This document shows positions 7,405 through 24,406 of a DNA stretch of 64,000 bases, piece after piece (position 1 is the stretch's first letter; every line of letters begins with the position of its first letter). Source of the stretch: Halorubrum coriense DSM 10284 (lineage in GTDB: Archaea; Halobacteriota; Halobacteria; Halobacteriales; Haloferacaceae); the NCBI RefSeq assembly GCF_000337035.1, contig NZ_AOJL01000026.1:62001-126000 (forward strand), read 5' to 3'. The translations under genes and the position numbers were made by a program. The notes under the pieces were generated by a model. It was not told the origin of the DNA, made no database searches, and saw nothing but the letters and a program-made list of their open reading frames with translations.

Positions 7405-8580
7405 CTATTGCGTCTGGTGGTCGGCCACGATATCAGTGAGAGATGGCTCCACGATCTGGCGGAACGAATGGAGCGTTTGGATGGCATTCCGAATTGAGTC
7501 ATCTGGCTGCTCCGTGTCTAATGGGACAGACTTGGCGAAGTATGCGTAACTGCTATCGACGATCTCCCAGCCATTATTCTCTAGACGGTCCAATTCATTT
7601 TCGTTGAGTTTGGTGTGGAGTTGCTGTCGAATCTGCTGTTTGTCTCCACGTTCAATGTCAAGTCGGAGGCGGATGTCTGGGTGGTCACGGTTGAGATGGA
7701 CGTGGAGTTCATATTCGATTGTCACGCTGCCTGCAACGTTACCCCAGTCTTTTTTAGCGAAGTTGATATACGTATTAGGCCGGTTGTTGACGGTCCATTC
7801 CTCATGATCACCATCTAATTCACCGAAGAACGCTGTTTCGAGGCGATTGAACACCTTATTTTTATCATCTTCGTATGCTTGGACTAGGCGGTCGATAGTG
7901 TCTGCGTATTCAGTGTAGAGTTTCGTCTCGTCGGAGATGGTGGTGAAGTCGTCCATGTTGAGTGTCTGTTGGATTGTATCGAGATAATCAGCGAACTGTG
8001 CGTAGCTTTTCGATGGGTACTGCCCATGGCTCGTTCGTAATACGTCCTCAAAGTAGGGAACGACAGACTCCCAAGAGATATCGACGAACGTCTCTGATTT
8101 TGATGAACGCGCATTCCCGGGAGCGAGATACACATACTCACTCACACCATCGTGTTGGCTGACATCGAGATCGCCAAGCTCAGTTGCTTGGGCATATCGT
8201 CTCGTTTGGACCCCTGTTTCTGCTGCATCGACTTTCAGTTCGATAACGACATACCACGCATCCTCACACCACAACAGGATGTCAAAGACGCCGTCTTCTG
8301 TCGGGACCTGGGAGTGGACCTCAATTTGCCCGAGATCAGATCGCGTCGACGAGAGTGACGTACTGTCATGGGCTGTAATTGCGTTCAAGAAGGCCTGAAG
8401 TACATCTGATCCAAACCCGTGAGGATTACTCGAATCTAGAAAGTAAACCAGCAAGTCCTCCCAGTACCGTTCGCGTTTAGCTTCTCCGAGAATATCTAAT
8501 GTCGTTGTCGGAGGACGATCAACACCAGCTAACCGCTCCTCGATATCTTGGAGGTGAGTCTCTAGCGTTGTTTCTGACAC
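7405..8580 (-). CDS. PD-(D/E)XK nuclease-family protein
   Basis: 391 residues starting at a GTG. The N-terminal third is a PD-(D/E)XK domain of the PDDEXK_4 type: E41 in RYWEDLLVYFLD, D100 in VFDILLW, E114-L-K116 in VVIELKVDA, and Q125 in the following helix. The C-terminal half (about 200-391) is mixed alpha/beta and unrecognised. It has its own TATA-like tracts just upstream, so it may be transcribed apart from the helicase gene 60 nt away. Its G+C is well below the core chromosome. A defence or repair role with the helicase is inferred. Confidence 0.8.
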   Translation of the reverse strand: MSETTLETHLQDIEERLAGVDRPPTTTLDILGEAKRERYWEDLLVYFLDSSNPHGFGSDVLQAFLNAITAHDSTSLSSTRSDLGQIEVHSQVPTEDGVFDILLWCEDAWYVVIELKVDAAETGVQTRRYAQATELGDLDVSQHDGVSEYVYLAPGNARSSKSETFVDISWESVVPYFEDVLRTSHGQYPSKSYAQFADYLDTIQQTLNMDDFTTISDETKLYTEYADTIDRLVQAYEDDKNKVFNRLETAFFGELDGDHEEWTVNNRPNTYINFAKKDWGNVAGSVTIEYELHVHLNRDHPDIRLRLDIERGDKQQIRQQLHTKLNENELDRLENNGWEIVDSSYAYFAKSVPLDTEQPDDSIRNAIQTLHSFRQIVEPSLTDIVADHQTQ

Positions 8581-8640
8581 AGATATATAATATTACAGAT
8601 CACATAAAGTACCAGTGGACTGGGCCGGCGAAGATTCTCT

Positions 8641-11600
8641 TCACTCCTCCTCAGTTGCTTTCAGCTCGGTAGGGGTATCACCTGAAGAATCGTCCTGAGA
8701 CAATTGATAGTGAATTGTTTCGACATCCACTCGCGCATCCTCGGGCTCAATCTCAGTTAGTTCACTGAATCCGTTGATCACTACCTGCGGATCACCTTTG
8801 TACTCGTTAACGCTGATATTCTCGAACCGATACCAAGTATCGCTCTCTACTGTGGGTGGGTCAGCACTTGCCCAGGAGACGACTTTGACTGAATCAGTGT
8901 GGTCCTCAAGTACACCGCCTTGATGTTTCTTCGCGTGTGTGTCGTCCCAGAGATGGGCGACTCGGGCTTGGAGCGTGTTTTGATTCCCCGTGGGATCAAG
9001 CGACACAATACGGTCGGCATTTGTCGCTGTATCGACGTACTGGTCGATCTCGTCGATAAAGCGTGATTGGTCCTCTTGATTCGACTTCGTGATGACATCA
9101 AGCGTCCGTGCGCTCCGGGTGATGGCAACGTAAAAGAGGCGACGCTCTTCGGAAAGCGTATTCATATCGACCTCTCGAACGGGTTCAAGTAACTCTGAGT
9201 TCCGATCAGTGGCAGGAAAGCCCATGCCATCTTCAGAGGCGTGGGTCACGATGACGTGATCCGCCTCACGGCCTTTCGCTTGGTGGACAGAACAAACAGT
9301 GACACCGTCCTGCTGGTCGCTACCGCTTGTATATGGAATTGACCGGTCATGAAGTCGCTTGCGGACAGCATCAAGGTGGCTAACGGCGTCGTCATACCGG
9401 CAGAGCACCATAATCTCGTTTGGATCACAACCACTGTCTATGTAATCGGCGACGAGGTGGGCCACGAGCTCGGCAGTGTACTTTACGTAGTCATACTCGC
9501 GGTAGCCACCCAGAAGGTGTTTGACGACGGCGGCAGGGGCGTCTGAAGCCGCAGTCGTCTGCTTGACAAGTTGATTCTCGTTTTGTTCGATCAGCTCAAC
9601 ACTCGCTTTGACGAGTTGTGAGGGGGATCGGTAATTTGTATCGAGTGTAGTAGTGGCAGTGTACTCGAACCGCTCTTCAAAATTAATGAAGAGGTCGACA
9701 ACAGCACCTTGGAACGAGTAGATACTCTGCCAGTCATCACCGACCGCAAATAGCTGCGCATTATCTGGCCCAGATAGCTGTGCGATAAGCTGTAATTGGT
9801 CTTGGCCGATGTCTTGAAACTCGTCGACAAGAACGTGTTCATAGCCAGGAGTAGCGGGGTCTGCTCCGGTTGAGAGTAGTGATGCTGCTTCGTAGATCAT
9901 ATCGGTAAAATCGATATTCCCTGATTCTCTCAACCGAGTTTCGTACGCGTTCAACAAGAGCCCCCCACACATGCCGAAATAATACTGGGAGGATTGATCT
10001 ATCGAGAGGCGGGACGGGATTTCCGAAGGCTCAATTTCGAACGTTCGAGCAAGTTCAATAAATCGGGTGAACATCTGCTGAATTGGGATATTGCGGTTGT
10101 GAATCTCGTATGTCTCATTCACGAGTTCTTCATGAGACCGTCGATCGAGTGAGACATGATGATGTGTGAGTCGGTGCGTGAGAGCTTGGCGTAACCGGCC
10201 CGTATCAAATTCAAACTGATACGTTTCGAGGAGAACGGCGTCACGGTCATCGAACACCTCTCGAGCCCAGTGGATTTTCTCGATGTATTCTTCGCTTGAT
10301 TGCGTAAACCAATCTGCGACCTGGCCATCTTCGTCAATACCGTAATGTTCGATCCAAATCTCGGCTTCTGGGAGGTAGAAATCAGGCCGATATGCGCTGA
10401 TTTCCGTAGGCCTATCAGCGTCGGAGTCTGTAGATTCCGAATCAGTCCCTGTCTGGTCTCCCTGTGAATGTGACTGATCTAGGTCTGCCCGATATTCGTA
10501 CTTGTAGTCGATTTGATGGACATATAGAAAGTCGGCAATGAGCTTCTCAGCGCGCGATTTGACCTTCTCACCACGTAATGTTTCATACTCCTCGCGTCGG
10601 AGGTGTTCAACAAACTCCTCTTTTGTCTCAAAATCTGTCTCGCTAACGGTGGGTAACTCACTTTGGAGAAGAAAATTCGAGAAGTGCTCATAGAACGTCT
10701 CCGGGACGAGTTCTGTACGTTGCTCAAGAACATCATCGACGAGATGCTCCAGGTCATCACCATCAAACACGTCTGGTCTTCCACCAGTTGTATTCGTAAT
10801 AACTGAGTAACCGAAGGAGTGTAGCGTTGAGGCCTTGATCCCCGTAATATCGAACTCTTCACGTAGTCGCCGTTGCAATTCTTCGGCAGCCTCGTTGAGA
10901 AACGTCACGACGAGAATATCTGCGGGGTCTACATCCTGATATTTGACAAGGTACGCAACACGAGTCGTCAGTACAAGCGTTTTGCCGGTCCCAGCGCCAG
11001 CAATAACACGGTTGTATGAATCATTTCGAATAACTGCTTCCCGCTGATCCCGATCAAGTGTCGTCTCATCCTGTCCAACAGCATCAAAAAATGATTGCCT
11101 CCGTCTGAGTTCACTCTCGACGAAGCGGTCGTTGTACCTGTCGCGGTTCGTGAGTAACTGACCAACTTCTGCAAGATTACGTTCAAATCCCCGGATCAGT
11201 GGGTGTGCGGTTGCGATCCCAGTGGTCTCTTCGACCGATGACCGAAGCGCTCCCAACTCCGCCTGTAGCGTGGCAGATCTTGACGTTAATGTCTCTTGAT
11301 CATGCCCGGTTAGGTATGACTCCGTGTCAAGATAGGGTTGCATACGATTGAGAAGGTTCAACAGACGGTCCTCAAACTGATCGCACATTTCGTGAAACCG
11401 CTTCTCACGGGCGCTCGTTACCACAGAGTCCCGTTTGTGAAGGTACACGGCAGAGCCGATAATAGGGATTCCAACAGCCAACGCGGCCCATCGGGTGGCA
11501 GACATGTCCCAGTGGGTTTCGTCACTGATTGCCTGTGCGTCTGCAACCACAGTTTTCCAGATCAGAACCGCCGTCAGAACAATCAGCGATCCACTCCAAA

Positions 11601-15276: not shown

Positions 15277-16185
15277 ATGGATATCGATCGAGCTCGTGGT
15301 GTTCTCTGTGGAATCGCTTGTGGGGACGCGCTTGGCCGGCCGGTTGAGTTTATGTCTGCGTCCGAGATTCGGGCTGAGTACGGGCGGCTCGACGAGATGA
15401 TCGGACACGGAACGTGGAACCAGCCCGCTGGGACGATCACGGACGACACCGAGCAAGCGCTGTGTATCGCACGGAGCCTCGCCGAGCAACACAAGTTCGA
15501 TCCGGCGGACATTGCCGACCGGTTCGTCGCGTGGTATGACAGTGGCCCATTCGATATTGGGGGGATGACGAGGCGGTCGTTGAGCCGACTCAAACACGGT
15601 GACGAGTGGGACGAAGCAGGCCAGCACGTGTGGGAGCAGAGCAGAGAAGGCCAGAACGCGGGGAACGGGAGTGTGATGCGATGCGCACCGCTTGCCATTC
15701 CGTACGCGACAGACCGGCAACGACTTGTGGGGGTGAGTCGGCAGTCCTCGCAGATCACGCACGCTGACCCGCGGTGTACGTACGGCTGCGCAGTGCTGAA
15801 CCTCACGGTGGCGGGCCTCCTCGACGACGTGGACACGCCGCTACAGGACGCGCTTGACAGCGTCGGCTCAGACGCGACTGGTGAGCTTGTGACGGCGCTT
15901 CAACCGCTCGCTCGTGGCGAGTCACCAGACACGTTAGAAACGTCAGGATACGTCGTCCACTCCCTACAGACGGCACTCCACGATGGGCTGTTCACTGAGA
16001 GTGCCGAGGAGGCGATCGTGACTGCGGTCAATCGCGGTGGAGATACCGACACGATCGGGGCGATTGCGGGTGCGGTCGCAGGTGCGCGGTTCGGCGCATC
16101 GGCGCTTCCTGATCGGTGGCTTGATGCGATTGACGAGGCTGGCGAACTCAAATCGATAGCAGACCAACTCGTGGAGCTGGCATGA
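15277..16185 (+). CDS. ADP-ribosylglycohydrolase (DraG family)
   Basis: 302 residues of the DraG/ADP-ribosyl-hydrolase fold. Key metal-binding segments are visible: GDALGRPVEF near the N-terminus, TDDTEQALCIARSL, the GNGSVMRCAPLAI motif and RGGDTDTIGAIAGAVAGA near the C-terminus. All acidic metal ligands expected for the family appear present. It would remove ADP-ribose from proteins or nucleic acids. Its last 294 bp are repeated, ungapped and about 83 percent identical, at 24113-24406. Such enzymes can oppose ADP-ribosyltransferase toxins, but no partner toxin is recognised here. Confidence 0.88.
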   Translation: MDIDRARGVLCGIACGDALGRPVEFMSASEIRAEYGRLDEMIGHGTWNQPAGTITDDTEQALCIARSLAEQHKFDPADIADRFVAWYDSGPFDIGGMTRRSLSRLKHGDEWDEAGQHVWEQSREGQNAGNGSVMRCAPLAIPYATDRQRLVGVSRQSSQITHADPRCTYGCAVLNLTVAGLLDDVDTPLQDALDSVGSDATGELVTALQPLARGESPDTLETSGYVVHSLQTALHDGLFTESAEEAIVTAVNRGGDTDTIGAIAGAVAGARFGASALPDRWLDAIDEAGELKSIADQLVELA

Positions 16186-18063: not shown

Positions 18064-19143
18064 ATGTCCCTCCAATATGACGGTGGAGATCGAATCCGAA
18101 ATCCGGACCGTACTGATTACCAGGTGGGGAACCGATTCAAAAAGATTCTAGAGACACTCCCAGATTCGACGGTCCCGAAAGCGTTGGTGATAGTCGGGAT
18201 TCTGACTCGTGAGCTAACCCCTGTCGATGTCGATCCGTCAGCGCATCGGGACAAAGCAGCGACGATTACAGACCCACCGTCTGCTGAGGTACCCGTTGAG
18301 ACGGTTCAGCGAACTCTCTGGTTGCTCAGCGAGGTTCGGGGATCACTATCTACGGAGCGTAAACAAGCGGTCGGAACGATACTCTCCGCTTCGGGTTTGA
18401 ACACGCCAGAAGGGTCTGAGTCCGAGAGGGCCCAAACGAGCGAGACGGGCGAGAGTGTCGACTCGAACGTCGATAGTTCGAACCCGACTACGGGGGACAT
18501 ACACGAAGACGAAGGCGGGCAAAACAATCTTGAGAAAAACTACGAGTGTGAGTTTTGTGCGGAGCCATTTGCTAGGGAGCGTGAGTTGATGTCTCATCTA
18601 ACGTCGTGTACTGAGCGGCCCGATGGTGCTCGCTTCGGGTGCGACCACTGTGACCGCACATACCACTCTCAGCACGCAGTCGACCGCCACGTCGAACGCA
18701 CTCATGATCCGGAGCCAGAGGAGAAAACAGTGCATCGCTGCGCTGACTGTGGCAATGAGTTCGATGCGCCGATGGATCTCCTCAGGCACAGGGCGAGTCA
18801 CACGGGACACTCGAACGATACCGCTGACACGGACGATTCCTCAGCACCAACTGGTGGACAGCAGCTGAACGACGAATTCGTGGCTCGAGACGATGTTGGT
18901 GTTGTTGACCACTCTAATCCGGAGGATGGCTATGGGTTCATTTCGACAAGTGAGGTGACTGATGATGTCTTCTTCCACGTGAGCAACGTTGCAGGTCGAT
19001 TCCCCACAGAGGATGACCTACTACAGTATGATATCCGTGAGACCGATCGTGGGTACGAAGCGGTCGATATCGAGCACAAAAAACGAGCAGAGTCAGTAAC
19101 CGACCCATTCGCCAGTACACGTACGCGCTGGGGAGGGAATTGA
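18064..19143 (+). CDS. C2H2 zinc-finger and cold-shock-domain fusion protein
   Basis: 359 residues. After an unrecognised N-terminal region (1-115) and an acidic linker come three fingers: C162/C165/H178/C183 (the fourth ligand is Cys), C193/C196/H209/H214 and C226/C229/H242/H246. A cold-shock domain follows at about 278-337, with the RNA-binding motifs YGFIS and VFFHV. This combination would bind single-stranded nucleic acid, RNA in particular. An AT-rich upstream tract (ACATATTATATGT) suggests its own promoter. Arrays of C2H2 fingers joined to a CSD are unusual in archaea. Function beyond nucleic-acid binding is unknown. Confidence 0.8.
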   Translation: MSLQYDGGDRIRNPDRTDYQVGNRFKKILETLPDSTVPKALVIVGILTRELTPVDVDPSAHRDKAATITDPPSAEVPVETVQRTLWLLSEVRGSLSTERKQAVGTILSASGLNTPEGSESERAQTSETGESVDSNVDSSNPTTGDIHEDEGGQNNLEKNYECEFCAEPFARERELMSHLTSCTERPDGARFGCDHCDRTYHSQHAVDRHVERTHDPEPEEKTVHRCADCGNEFDAPMDLLRHRASHTGHSNDTADTDDSSAPTGGQQLNDEFVARDDVGVVDHSNPEDGYGFISTSEVTDDVFFHVSNVAGRFPTEDDLLQYDIRETDRGYEAVDIEHKKRAESVTDPFASTRTRWGGN

Positions 19144-19446: not shown

Positions 19447-19872
19447 GTCCCCTGTACTGACGACACTCCGGTCAGAATGTATCACATCCTAAGGGTTTCA
19501 ACAGACCCGATAGAGTGTGATTCAGACCTATCAAAACGAATCCGCTAGGGATAGCTTGAGTCGCCTGCTTACAACCATTTACACTCGGGACACCCCCTCC
19601 CCCCCTCCCCCTAGGAGACAATCGTTGGAGGAGAGATTCAGTTCGAACGCGATCAGTACCAGTTTCGAGCATCATCTCCATCAGAACTCTACCAAAATGA
19701 GACCTTGTTCAGGTCGATGATGATATGCGACTTTTCGATGGCTAGTTACGTTTTCTCAGGTCGCTTAACTGCTCTCTACAGACCTTCCTGATTTTGTCGA
19801 GGTGCCTTTGGGGGACCGAAGATACTCTACTACCACTCCACGGCACGGGTTTATTCGTCGCAGACGGATGGC
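19447..19872. other. gene-free interval upstream of PLD-ATPase
   Basis: It contains the repeat end at 19493-19508 and a C-rich tract around 19592-19612. The last 60 bases before the ATG carry no clear TATA box that I can defend. The open frames in it have poor coding character. Confidence 0.45.
19493..19508. repeat. 16-bp transposon-end-like sequence, copy 3
   Basis: GGGTTTCAACAGACCC differs by one base from 22358-22373; the pair lies as direct repeats on either side of the PLD-ATPase gene. Confidence 0.5.
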
Positions 19873-22155
19873 ATGTTTATGGACGAACTGACGGCGAACA
19901 TCTCGTTTGATCGGTTCGCAGATATGCCAGAATTCTACGGGTCAGGTGCGGCGAAGTACCGGTTAGCGATGGTGAAAAGCCGTGATGACTTCTTAGAGTT
20001 GTTCGAAGGCGCAGACCACGTGGACGCAGTGACGTACGCGGAGACGCCTGAACTGATGGTGCAGATGCTGACCGAGTACGGTATCGGGTCGCTCGACGTG
20101 CTCATCGGAAACGCCGACGATTACGCCGATCAGGTGAACGAAGTGGCGACGGCCCGGTCATTGGTACAGCTCCGGCAGGACGACCGGCTCGTCGTGCGTC
20201 TGAAGAATCGGAAGACGGTACACTCGAAGATCTACCGGATCGTCATGCCGGACGACACGGTGAAACTCGTTCAAGGGTCGGCGAATCTGTCGCGGAATTC
20301 GTGGGAGTACCACACAAATCAGATCTCGGTGATGACGACGGAACTCGGCACGGAGTTGGACGAGTCGTTCGAACGGTTCATCGATCAATACCGAGAGGGG
20401 TACAGTAGCCAGACGCTGCTCGAGGGACTGGTCGAAGCGCTCGAAGACGCGGATTCTCCCGAAGAGCGTGAAAATCGGATCGAGTACTGGGTCGGAGCCG
20501 GCGACCTTGACGTGAGTGACACGGCCGCGCTGAATCAGGACGCCGTGGAGGATCTGAAAGCGGTCGCGGATCACGTCACGGCGGTCGTTGATGACCCTGA
20601 CGAGGCCGATGAAACAGTTGCGTTCGTCGAAGATCCGGACACCGCTGATCGAACCGTCGTCGAACCAGAGGAGACCGAAGGAGAGGAGTCCGACGAACCC
20701 GCCGGCGAGGAGACGGAACCGGACGTGGGGCTCGTCGAATCAGAGCACGAAACCGGGCTGACGGACACGCTCGATCGTCCTCGTGTCAGGACGCCTGACG
20801 AGCGGATACGGATGGGGACGAGCAAGGTCGATAAGGACACGGCGGACGAGTTCGGGGCGAGTCTCCGGGATCGCGGCGCAACCATTGAGGATCACAGCAT
20901 CACCGCGCCGCTCAGCGCGTACAACACACAGGTGAAGGAATCGACGGCGATTCCGACGATGACGGTGTTGCCGGACGCGGAGCAAGTCGTGATCGGTGAG
21001 CAAGACGAGATGATCCTCGTCGCTACCGAGGAACCGACTCCTGCGGTGTTGGATCACTGCCTCGAAACGATCGAGGACTACATCGAGACCGTCGAAAACC
21101 ACGGTCACACGCAGTCCGAGACGGCGGTGATGGCACAGATGTACGAAGCGTTTCTCTACGGATTCTGGGCCCCGTTCGCAAACCAGTACGCCGAAGCCAT
21201 GTCATCGCCATCCCGTACACTCGATAACGTACTCCAACACCTGTACATCGAAGGGAAGAGCGACGCCGGGAAGGACAAACTCACCGAGTACATCCTCCGA
21301 CTGGTCTCAGACAACACCGTGATTTCCGGGGTGGACGCCGACGACGTCGGCGTCAAAGAGATCCGCGGGATTCGAGAGTGGAACACGAGCTTCCCGTACG
21401 CCATCATCGACGCGGAGAAAGAGAAGATACAGCGGTGGAGCCCGATCCGGAACTACTGGGGCGATTGGACGCCGACGAGCGTCGATCAGCCGTGCCTGAT
21501 TTTCACGACGAACGATGCGCTCCCGAAATCTGAGTTCCGGAACAGAATGAAGATTCTCAGCATGGACGTGTCGTTCCCGTCAAACCCAGAGGATCCGGGA
21601 TTCCGCGAGGCGCAAGAAGACCTCGCAGACGTACTCGAACGGCAGAATCCTATCTTCAGTTACGTCGCGCGACGCATGCTCACCGACAAGCCGTGGACTG
21701 ACGGGAACGGTACGATCGAAGACGTCCGTGGTATCGTTCGGGAGTTCTACAAAGAGGCCGGAAGAGAGCAACCGGAGTACTTCCCTGCCGACGAACCTGC
21801 TGAGAAAACGTACGACACGGGGCGGCTCAAATGGCAACGCGACATTCAGGGCGGTCGAGTCACGTTCGAATCAGAGCCCGACGCGATCACGGCTGATTTC
21901 GACCGCGAGGAGTACGAGGTGTACGACTACGAGAAGCGACTCCCCAAGCGGTTCATGTCGGAGAAGTCCTCTACGAGCGTGTACATCGGCGCACCGGACG
22001 AATTCGCAGAGTGGATCGGGTACTCCGTCGAAGATCTCCTCGGGAATCCCGCGGAGACCGAGACGCGGCCAGAACCCCAAGCAGAAAACGAAACTGACGC
22101 CAGTAACGCCGACGAGTCAAGCGGGTTCCTCTCCCGGCTTCTCGGCAGGTCATAG
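19873..22155 (+). CDS. PLD-family nuclease fused to a P-loop ATPase-like domain
   Basis: 760 residues. The N-terminal 180 residues are phospholipase D-like: H117-S-K119 followed by GSANLSRN at 135-142, the HKD-type nuclease motif found in several restriction and defence nucleases. An acidic linker (about 235-310) leads to a helical region. A P-loop-like sequence GKSDAGKD is at 461-468, with Asp where Ser/Thr is usual. IIDAEKEK and CLIFTTND follow, as in AAA+/SF3-type ATPases. The C-terminus is acidic. One HKD motif suggests it dimerises. ATP-driven DNA or RNA restriction is inferred. Confidence 0.75.
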   Translation: MFMDELTANISFDRFADMPEFYGSGAAKYRLAMVKSRDDFLELFEGADHVDAVTYAETPELMVQMLTEYGIGSLDVLIGNADDYADQVNEVATARSLVQLRQDDRLVVRLKNRKTVHSKIYRIVMPDDTVKLVQGSANLSRNSWEYHTNQISVMTTELGTELDESFERFIDQYREGYSSQTLLEGLVEALEDADSPEERENRIEYWVGAGDLDVSDTAALNQDAVEDLKAVADHVTAVVDDPDEADETVAFVEDPDTADRTVVEPEETEGEESDEPAGEETEPDVGLVESEHETGLTDTLDRPRVRTPDERIRMGTSKVDKDTADEFGASLRDRGATIEDHSITAPLSAYNTQVKESTAIPTMTVLPDAEQVVIGEQDEMILVATEEPTPAVLDHCLETIEDYIETVENHGHTQSETAVMAQMYEAFLYGFWAPFANQYAEAMSSPSRTLDNVLQHLYIEGKSDAGKDKLTEYILRLVSDNTVISGVDADDVGVKEIRGIREWNTSFPYAIIDAEKEKIQRWSPIRNYWGDWTPTSVDQPCLIFTTNDALPKSEFRNRMKILSMDVSFPSNPEDPGFREAQEDLADVLERQNPIFSYVARRMLTDKPWTDGNGTIEDVRGIVREFYKEAGREQPEYFPADEPAEKTYDTGRLKWQRDIQGGRVTFESEPDAITADFDREEYEVYDYEKRLPKRFMSEKSSTSVYIGAPDEFAEWIGYSVEDLLGNPAETETRPEPQAENETDASNADESSGFLSRLLGRS

Positions 22156-22280
22156 CGACCGCAGCGTCGGAGCGTTTCGGGAGGTTTCCGTCAGAATACC
22201 TCGAACTCGGCACGATACACGCACACGCTTCTCTGTCCGCCAACCGTGGGACCTCATATTGGTCCTAAAATCGGAACGGT

Positions 22281-22321
22281 ATTTCAGAAATGACGATTTC
22301 AGAAATCGTCGTTTCCGAAAC
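22281..22321. promoter_or_regulatory. three phased TTTCNGAAA palindromes
   Basis: ATTTCAGAAAT (22281-22291), GACGATTTCAGAAATCGTC (perfect 9-bp arms, wider span 22292-22310) and GTTTCCGAAAC (22311-22321) have centres at 22286, 22301 and 22316, exactly 15 bp apart. They lie 88-128 bp before the Mrr-like gene and after the PLD gene. Regular spacing suggests a cooperative operator; the protein is unknown. Confidence 0.55.
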
Positions 22322-22357
22322 TGGGAACTCCATCTGTGAGGGCGTGTTACTTGGAGA

Positions 22358-22373
22358 GGGTTTCAATAGACCC
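22358..22373. repeat. 16-bp transposon-end-like sequence, copy 4
   Basis: GGGTTTCAATAGACCC matches 19493-19508 except at one base and lies 36 bp upstream of the Mrr-like gene. Confidence 0.5.
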
Positions 22374-22408
22374 TTTACAGCGGAACTGACACAATTGGAG
22401 TACGCTAG

Positions 22409-23773
22409 ATGCCCGTCTTAGATGATCTCTCCGGATTCGAGTTCGAGGACGTGATGGAGGACGTCTTCCGGAACCTCGGGTACGAGAACGTCCGGCAGGC
22501 GGAACGGACCGCCGACGAGGGGCGCGATATCCTGATGGAAGAGGTCGTTGACGGGACTCGGCGCGGTGTCGTCGTCGAGTGTAAGCACACGGGAACCGTC
22601 GGGCGACCGGTCGTACAGAAGCTACACTCCGCGATTGCGACCTTCGAGTTCGACGGGCCGAAACGCGGGATGGTGGCAACGACCGGTCGATTCACCGGCC
22701 CGGCCATCGAGTACGCCCAGCGGCTTCGGCGGAACGACGACCCGTACCCAATCGAACTGATCGACGGCGAGGACCTGCGTGAGATCGCTGACGAGATCGG
22801 GTTGGACCTGTACAACGGTCGGATAGAAATCCTGTGCGACGAGACGCTCCGGCCGTACGATCCGGCGACGTCGGTGACGGCACCGGTCGAGGAAGCGTTC
22901 CACGACATCGAAAACATCGAGTCAGCGGACCTTCCCGCGCCGCACTCTCACGTCACCTTCCGGCCGGTCGTTGCTGTGACAGCGGACACGAACGGGGTCT
23001 TCGAAACGTCGGTCGGCGTGATTCATCGGGTCAACGACCGGTCTCGGTTCGTTGTCCACGCCGAACGCGGCCACCCGAAAACCGCTGCGGGTGATGTCTC
23101 GAACCTCGTGTTGGAGAACCTCCACGCGACCGTCGATCTCGACGCGGAGCAGTTCGAAGATCAATTCGATGTGGTCGAAGAGCGCCGATTCGGGCAGACA
23201 CAGACCGAGTACAAAGACTGGGCCGTCGACCGGGTCAGAGAACGCCACACGACGACGGTCTCCTACACGGGAGACAACAACGTCACGTACACGAAAACGT
23301 GCGAACCGAAGCGCTCCGACATTTCGGTACAGTCGATCGAACCGGTGTACCTCCCAGAGATTCGGCAGACGACTGAACTACGGGAATACACGTATCCGTA
23401 CGAGTACTTCACAGCCGGACCGTCACGCGTCACGAGCGAAGATGGGATTCATCGATGCGTTCACTGCGATACAGCTGGCACTGATAACGACTACACGTAC
23501 TGCGCGAACTGCGGGAGTATCAACTGCGACTCGCATATCAAGACCGAACGGTTGGAGGGAACTCCCGTCTGTACCGGGTGCGCGGTGACCGAGCGCTTCG
23601 CGTTCAAGACCAAGTACTTCTACGACGCGGAGAATCGAGACGCGTTCCGCGAAGAGTACGAATCGATGCCGTTCTACGAGAAAGCGATGGAGAACACACC
23701 GCTCGCCGTCGGCACGGCCGCCGTAGTCGTACTCGTCTTACTCGGAGTCCTGATCAGTCTCGGGGGGATATAA
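22409..23773 (+). CDS. Mrr-like restriction endonuclease with zinc ribbon and C-terminal membrane anchor
   Basis: 454 residues. The N-terminus is an Mrr-type PD-(D/E)XK domain: FEFEDVMEDVFRNLGYENV, D40 in DEGRDILM, and E57-C-K59 in GVVVECKH, with the GTVGRPVVQKLHSAI helix typical of Mrr. The middle (about 150-340) is beta-rich and unrecognised. Paired CxxC motifs around 349-390 form a zinc ribbon or two. The last 25 residues are a hydrophobic transmembrane segment, so the nuclease would be held at the membrane. Mrr enzymes cut modified or stressed DNA. Together with the upstream PLD-ATPase it may form one defence locus. Confidence 0.8.
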   Translation: MPVLDDLSGFEFEDVMEDVFRNLGYENVRQAERTADEGRDILMEEVVDGTRRGVVVECKHTGTVGRPVVQKLHSAIATFEFDGPKRGMVATTGRFTGPAIEYAQRLRRNDDPYPIELIDGEDLREIADEIGLDLYNGRIEILCDETLRPYDPATSVTAPVEEAFHDIENIESADLPAPHSHVTFRPVVAVTADTNGVFETSVGVIHRVNDRSRFVVHAERGHPKTAAGDVSNLVLENLHATVDLDAEQFEDQFDVVEERRFGQTQTEYKDWAVDRVRERHTTTVSYTGDNNVTYTKTCEPKRSDISVQSIEPVYLPEIRQTTELREYTYPYEYFTAGPSRVTSEDGIHRCVHCDTAGTDNDYTYCANCGSINCDSHIKTERLEGTPVCTGCAVTERFAFKTKYFYDAENRDAFREEYESMPFYEKAMENTPLAVGTAAVVVLVLLGVLISLGGI

Positions 23774-24112: not shown

Positions 24113-24406
24113 ACGGCGCTTCAACCCCTCGTTCGTGGCGATTCACCAGACACGTTGGAGACGTCGGGATACGTCGTTCACTCGCTACAAACGGCGCTCC
24201 ACGATGGGCTGTTCACTGAGAGTGTTGAGGAAGCAATCGTGACTGCGGTCAATCGCGGCGGAGACACCGATACGATTGGGGCGATTGCGGGTACGGCCGC
24301 AGGTGCGCGGTTCGGGGCGTCACAGCTTCCGGAGCGGTGGATGAGTGCCATCGATGAAGTTGGGGAACTCGAATCGGTGGCAACACAGCTTGTGGAAGCA
24401 GAGTGA
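24113..24406 (+). pseudogene. truncated ADP-ribosylglycohydrolase, C-terminal fragment
   Basis: These 294 bases align without gaps to 15892-16185, the last 97 codons of the intact gene; I count about 51 mismatches, most at third codon positions. The fragment keeps the RGGDTDTIGAIAG metal motif and the stop, but the N-terminal two thirds are absent and no proper start exists. The synonymous-rich divergence means the copy came from a once-functional homologue, not from a recent local duplication. Confidence 0.85.

Follow-up and report, generated by a model that had tools for sequence, protein, structure and literature searches.

The 64,000-nucleotide window analyzed here, part of contig 26 of the 3.65 Mb genome of Halorubrum coriense DSM 10284, carries two open reading frames, ORF1 and ORF2, that encode a PLD nuclease-AAA+ protein and an Mrr-type endonuclease, respectively. 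Our preferred explanation, to which we assign a probability of roughly 60%, is that ORF1 is an orphan PLD-AAA+ defence nuclease of the AgaP family that acts against extrachromosomal DNA, an Argonaute-free form of a known family. The PLD-Mrr pair is real but local. The company that recurs around the PLD-AAA+ family is that of DNA end-resection genes, an association that is new here. The features of the locus are as follows.

19828..23766, + strand: two-gene block common to the loci L064 and L065 (blastn, 88% over the block only)
19879..22155, + strand: ORF1, AgaP-family PLD nuclease-AAA+ protein, 758 residues
19879..20433, + strand: PLD nuclease domain, residues 1-185 (H115, K117, G133, S134, N136), from fold match and invariance
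20776..22044, + strand: helicase-like AAA+ region, residues 300-722 (G464, K465, D511, N545, R556; D466 in Walker A), from the predicted fold
22282..22320, no strand assigned: array of three TTTCNGAAA units at 15-bp spacing, before ORF2
22409..23773, + strand: ORF2, Mrr-type endonuclease with a Cys-rich region and a C-terminal membrane tail, 454 residues

ORF1 and the AgaP Family

Haloarchaeal long-A Argonautes with PLD partners termed AgaP have been described as the APAP system (Cheng et al. 2024, PMC11442185). The alignment of ORF1 with the AgaP of Natrinema pellirubrum spans residues 31-718, with 222 of 729 positions identical (30%, E 9e-92), and on this sequence evidence ORF1 belongs to the AgaP family. 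H105 and G157 were located exactly as published in the N. pellirubrum protein, which shares the HxK and GSxN residues with ORF1 and also contains an AAA+ region with a GK motif (GK-G). The words 'ATPase', 'P-loop', and 'AAA' are absent from the main text of PMC11442185 in a word search confined to that text. According to the same report, a distance of ∼50 residues from HxK to GSxN is characteristic of AgaPs. Among 63 relatives, the spacing is 15 residues in 56, a type that includes ORF1, 14 in one, and 47-61 in six; the long gap is an acidic insert of one subclade, which ORF1 lacks, and the spacing therefore does not define the family. We note that the current plasmid record has the N. pellirubrum AgaP gene (L248:8899-11097) in pieces on both strands, with one 733-codon frame open.

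The PLD site of AgaP is reported to be required against a plasmid and the Argonaute site against a single-stranded DNA virus (PMC11442185). By analogy with this relative, which is reported to restrict both plasmid and virus, and given its family membership, there is good support for a role of ORF1 in defence. The initial annotation had suggested that the two genes form a candidate defence system matching none that has a name. The defence role stands for ORF1, but not for the pair as a general unit. PADLOC-DB holds no model for ORF1, whose sole match there is to Avs2 (35 residues, E 0.021), yet the family is already named; the AgaP name, the Argonaute link, and the end-resection partners had all been missed.

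Relatives of ORF1 occur in 94 of the 391 genomes of the class. The lists of 94 PLD loci and 53 Argonaute loci were compiled by hand, with several PLD rows partial; small fragments, multi-stop matches, unlisted rows, and Argonaute matches that were very weak or covered only the OB fold were left out. We refer to the 42 loci with at least 75% identity to ORF1, four of them partial, as the window clade; six loci are of intermediate identity and 46 are distant. A scan of genome contigs with one peptide pattern, which may miss distant relatives, returned 53 loci, of which one, L211, a metagenome-assembled contig labelled Bacteroidetes, is not haloarchaeal by title. Neither ORF1 nor ORF2 had a match in 50,697 phage records, and viral contigs contained no confirmed ORF1 relative; a phage or viral origin of the two genes was rejected on these null searches.

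Domain Architecture of ORF1

The ORF1 frame is open from 19873, and the ATG at 19879 agrees with the relatives. With this start, the residues first numbered H117 and K119 become H115 and K117. In residues 43-168, Pfam finds PLD and NgoFVII only below threshold (NgoFVII, 21.1 bits for a cut-off of 23.8; PLDc_2, 21.2 for 27), and does not recognise the AAA+ domain. NCBIfam matched neither ORF1 nor ORF2, and nothing of use came from searching the PDB by sequence. Structure prediction was more informative. In the AlphaFold2 model of the full protein (mean predicted local distance difference test score, pLDDT, of 75.3), residues 1-185 resemble SauUSI (Z 12.7), NgoAVII R (11.5), Nuc (11.2), NucT (11-12), and BfiI (9.0). 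These residues share the PLD nuclease fold of NgoAVII R, SauUSI, BfiI, and Nuc, but in ORF1 the fold is joined to an AAA+ domain predicted to be like that of replicative helicases. PbeA of the DndCDEA-PbeABCD system likewise serves in haloarchaeal defence and combines a PLD domain with an ATPase part, although it is described as having type III Res and DEAD-helicase domains, unlike ORF1 (PMC6459918). None of the dnd genes of that system turned up beside ORF1, where no search aimed at them was made.

The second domain, residues ∼359-652 of the full model, is closest to SCCmec Cch (Z 12.6) and SaPIBov1 Rep (11.8). Residues 300-722 folded alone (pLDDT 83.8, predicted template modeling score 0.82) gave the same leading matches (Cch, Z 12.3; SaPIBov1 Rep, 11.6), followed by MCM (10.2) and by D5 and BrxL (about 8). 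A Foldseek search of predicted viral proteins with the AAA+ domain had a best E-value of 4.7e-8, and the named matches include helicases and primases. In the predicted model, the region thus has the AAA+ fold of hexameric replicative helicases (Cch/SaPI Rep/MCM/superfamily 3), but its Walker A motif, GKSDAGKDK, departs from GK[S/T]. The residue that follows GK is D or G, never S or T, in 63/63 relatives, which identifies Lys-Asp as the trait of one family branch and not a local defect. H115, K117, G133, S134, N136, G464, K465, D511, N545, and R556 are invariant in all 40 aligned rows; the Asp of the canonical HxK(x)4D motif is replaced by Val in ORF1 (HSKIYRIV). From the retention of K465, D511, N545, and R556, the AAA+ domain probably still binds ATP, although the usual Mg-coordinating Ser/Thr is absent. 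The initial description of an HKD nuclease fused to a P-loop ATPase with Lys-Asp is borne out by the invariant H115/K117, the GKD motif, and the predicted fold.

Since the modelled AAA+ fold is nearest to mobile-element replication helicases and phage replication proteins, ORF1 could instead serve a mobile element in replication or mobilisation, as a PLD nicking enzyme with a replicative helicase for which the repeat array is the binding site. The patchy, mobile occurrence of ORF1-type genes and the presence of the array beside ORF1 would suit such a role. However, no element is common to the loci, the genes that recur nearby serve defence and resection, most ORF1 relatives have no such array beside them, and the AgaP relative is reported to act against a plasmid (PMC11442185). 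ORF1 further differs from Cch, the SaPI helicases, MCM, and D5 in GK[D/G] in place of GK[S/T], in its nuclease fusion, and in that no such element is present in the window. Transposon-like ends were not seen in the flanks of the 42 loci most similar to that of ORF1. We regard a replication or mobilisation function as very improbable.

Linkage to Argonaute

Distant ORF1 relatives adjoin Piwi genes: an Argonaute lies within 1 kb of the PLD gene in 24/46 distant loci and in 0/6 loci of intermediate identity. In the window clade, an Argonaute is found within 1 kb in two of the 42 loci and at 7.9-30.4 kb in eight, and 14/42 genomes have one, vs 53/391 overall. L249, the sole window-clade locus that is intact and adjoins an Argonaute, continues into PD-(D/E)XK and UvrD genes. 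PF02171 (Piwi) has no match in the whole genome to which the window belongs. Because of this, ORF1 is treated as an orphan AgaP and its locus is not classed as an APAP system; the direct neighbour of ORF1 is Mrr, in place of Argonaute.

D630, E666, D700, and D824, residues that we take to be the catalytic tetrad, are retained in 8/8 of the family-linked Argonautes. Haloarchaeal Argonautes have been studied for genome editing, and one genome in the set, G052, is presumably Natronobacterium gregoryi, whose Argonaute is NgAgo, from the look of the N-terminus of the protein. D630 is reported as a catalytic residue (PMC11442185). In an Argonaute tree of 50 of the 53 proteins, genomes with a window-clade PLD gene account for 11/24 rows in two groups mostly without an adjacent AgaP and for 1/26 rows in the group mostly with one; these groups were picked after the tree was seen, and both of our trees were quick ones with long-branch warnings. 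A different AgaP gene row was seen at L217:2762-17054, where genes in one direction encode Piwi, a YdjM-type membrane protein, AgaP, two small proteins, a ThiF/JAB-type protein (an enzyme of the ubiquitin-like-pathway type), an RNase_H_2/HHH protein, and a DEAD helicase.

That 28/42 window-clade genomes, including that of the window, are Argonaute-free, taken together with the reported toxicity of AgaP without its Argonaute (PMC11442185), invites the reading of ORF1 as the relic, decaying or silenced, of an APAP system that lost its Argonaute. A few members of the clade are indeed split or truncated. Most, however, are complete proteins with 78-98% identity across haloarchaeal families, their active-site residues are invariant, and the ORF1-type gene is still spreading together with its promoter region. 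On balance, decay is improbable.

DNA End-Resection Genes Recur beside the Family

Neighbourhoods were counted in the 62 of the 94 PLD loci that have flanks (37 window-clade, 5 intermediate, and 20 distant). As controls, we used 38 Mrr loci without a PLD gene, which are mostly plasmid-borne and not matched to the PLD loci. Relatives of Mre11, Rad50, HerA, or NurA are present in the flanks of 15/37 window-clade, 1/5 intermediate, and 5/20 distant loci vs 2/38 controls (Fisher 2.7e-4 for window clade against controls). By tblastn, the counts for Mre11, Rad50, NurA, and HerA are slightly higher at 16/37, 1/5, and 6/20, again with 2/38 controls. In 9/62 loci, the resection genes are on the same strand as the PLD gene and separated by no more than 300 bp, in several orders and in separate clades: Mre11-Rad50-NurA-x-HerA-PLD (L093-L095), Rad50-NurA-HerA-PLD (L148), PLD-Mre11-Rad50-NurA (L150), Piwi-PLD-Mre11-Rad50-NurA (L144), and Rad50-NurA-HerA-PLD-x-Piwi (L154). 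The HerA found beside PLD genes is of an accessory type present in 40/391 genomes at E ≤1e-100 and in 18 at ≥80% identity; in 11 of these 18, a window-clade PLD gene lies 97 bp to 8.7 kb away.

A second, AddA-like set accompanies one Argonaute-linked subclade. In 14/14 of its loci with enough contig, the PLD gene is followed by genes for a 685-residue protein, a PD-(D/E)XK nuclease, and a UvrD helicase with a PD-(D/E)XK domain; L292, whose contig ends inside the PLD gene, was set aside. An Argonaute precedes the PLD gene in these 14 loci, with G290 holding only pieces of one. The set is found in 4/20 distant, 0/37 window-clade, and 3/38 control loci, and in those controls it directly precedes the Mrr gene. 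Two of the 14 loci, L107 and L115, continue into ATPase_2 and then Mrr. In L106, L111, L112, L107, and L115, the Mrr nearest to the window type closes the AddA-like row, with or without ATPase_2 between. Among the titles listed by our literature searches, none describes a link of Argonaute to NurA/HerA or Mre11/Rad50 in haloarchaeal defence, and the searches made found neither a resection-coupled interference pathway nor an Argonaute-free AgaP branch in print.

ORF2, the Repeat Array, and the Two-Gene Block

ORF2 matches Mrr_cat at E 1.7e-24 (86.6 bits for a cut-off of 21). D40 and E57 are invariant in 47/47 aligned Mrr relatives and K59 is kept in 46/47, as in Mrr-type restriction endonucleases, from which ORF2 differs in its Cys-rich region and membrane tail. 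Three CxxC motifs lie at residues 350, 365, and 388, and the hydrophobic tail recurs in 47/47 relatives, in agreement with the Mrr endonuclease with zinc ribbons and C-terminal anchor that was initially annotated. The shared direction and the intervening repeats noted at the same time were also confirmed. Both genes are on the + strand, 253 bp apart, and a three-unit TTTCNGAAA array has 0 expected occurrences in 100 shuffles and has no second copy in the genome. Of the regions upstream of 46 Mrr genes, only the four with an ORF1 relative preceding Mrr contain the array. A block upstream of the PLD gene is conserved in only part of the 37 loci aligned, which rules out a single operator for the whole clade.

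The block shared with L064 and L065 runs for ∼3.9 kb, from 51 bp 5′ of the ORF1 start to 7 bp before the last base of ORF2, and the flanks of these two loci are unlike those of the window (blastn). L063 keeps an ORF1 relative at 96% without an ORF2 relative, and L101 and L102 keep an ORF2 relative without ORF1. Because the flanks differ and each gene is found without the other, sequence comparison indicates two movable genes joined into one block inside the genus Halorubrum.

An exact block shared by four Halorubrum loci with unrelated flanks and an array confined to the ORF1-Mrr arrangement are what a true two-component system would be expected to leave, with the PLD-AAA+ protein sensing or opening DNA, the membrane-bound Mrr as effector, and joint control through the array. 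It would also agree with L107 and L115, in the distant clade, where an 83-86% identical Mrr closes the gene row opened by Argonaute and the PLD protein. Rare adjacency of the homologues had been named at the outset as grounds against the pair, and this is largely what the neighbourhoods show. Mrr directly follows the PLD gene in 4/37 window-clade loci, all Halorubrum (a figure from the flank-bearing loci, not from the hand-listed Mrr subset of 27 places), and the Mrr family, present in 207/391 genomes with at most four listed copies each and in 84 plasmid records, mostly occurs without a PLD gene. The loci with only one of the two genes and the 253-bp gap also speak against an obligatory pair. 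These counts rule out the pair as a generally conserved system, and a two-component system at this locus appears unlikely.

The block lies in an island that extends from base 1 to ∼24,500, with many accessory genes and a G+C content of 48-64% vs ∼70% rightward. A 284-bp direct repeat (84% identical) occurs at 15892-16175 and 24113-24396; the left copy is within a full ADP-ribosylglycohydrolase gene (15277-16185), and the right copy is a fragment of a second such gene. Homology of the window to L062 stops at the right copy (24117). Since the repeats are on both sides of the block, recombination at this gene may have brought in the PLD/Mrr segment. The same island encodes a UvrD-type helicase (969 residues) followed by a PDDEXK_4 nuclease (391 residues) at 7405-11550 (- strand), the latter with PDC-S26, a candidate defence model, as its best PADLOC match. 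Upstream of ORF1, at 18064-19143 (+ strand), is a gene for a protein of unusual make-up that combines C2H2-type zinc fingers with a cold-shock domain at its C terminus.

A Model for Argonaute-Free AgaP

As an orphan AgaP-family nuclease, ORF1 would load through its AAA+ ring on extrachromosomal DNA during replication, at DNA ends or in single-stranded regions, and the loaded ring could position the PLD site for nicking or degrading that DNA. Where an Argonaute and a resection machine (Mre11-Rad50-NurA-HerA or AddA-like) are present, resection may feed single strands to both Argonaute and AgaP. Bacterial resection enzymes supply guides to Argonautes. In the window, Mrr, which elsewhere stands alone, has been joined to ORF1 as a 3.9-kb block in place of the Argonaute partnership, and the membrane-tethered protein probably makes a second, independent cut on incoming DNA at the membrane and is not an obligatory subunit.

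Several observations weigh against this explanation. Its weakest point is toxicity: because the published AgaP is toxic without its Argonaute and the window clade mostly lacks one, the Argonaute-free branch would need another restraint, possibly the altered Walker A motif, a conserved upstream element that keeps expression low or subject to induction, or substrate choice. Activity is reported for the AgaP relative (PMC11442185) and for no member of the window clade. When solved structures are searched with the AAA+ domain, Foldseek returns weak E-values, none better than 1.2e-3. The window lacks all of the Mre11-Rad50-NurA-HerA genes, its UvrD-type gene (8641-11550) is distant (31%) and not adjacent to ORF1, and 22/37 window-clade loci have no resection gene in the fetched flanks.

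A broader and more tentative proposal, which we consider possible but would not favour, is that the PLD-AAA+ protein is a hub of haloarchaeal interference, in which a dedicated end-resection machine turns invading DNA into single strands for the PLD nuclease and a long-A Argonaute; the window would then be an Argonaute-free form in which AgaP is coupled to a membrane-anchored Mrr instead. Should AgaP also be a helicase-like AAA+ protein that stands in gene rows with complete resection machines in several separate clades, these machines would be a testable source of single-stranded DNA for Argonaute guides, and this would explain how AgaP could act on plasmids independently of the catalytic site of Argonaute itself. 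The Argonaute-free clade would allow the PLD-AAA+ part to be studied alone, including the restraint on a protein that is toxic elsewhere.

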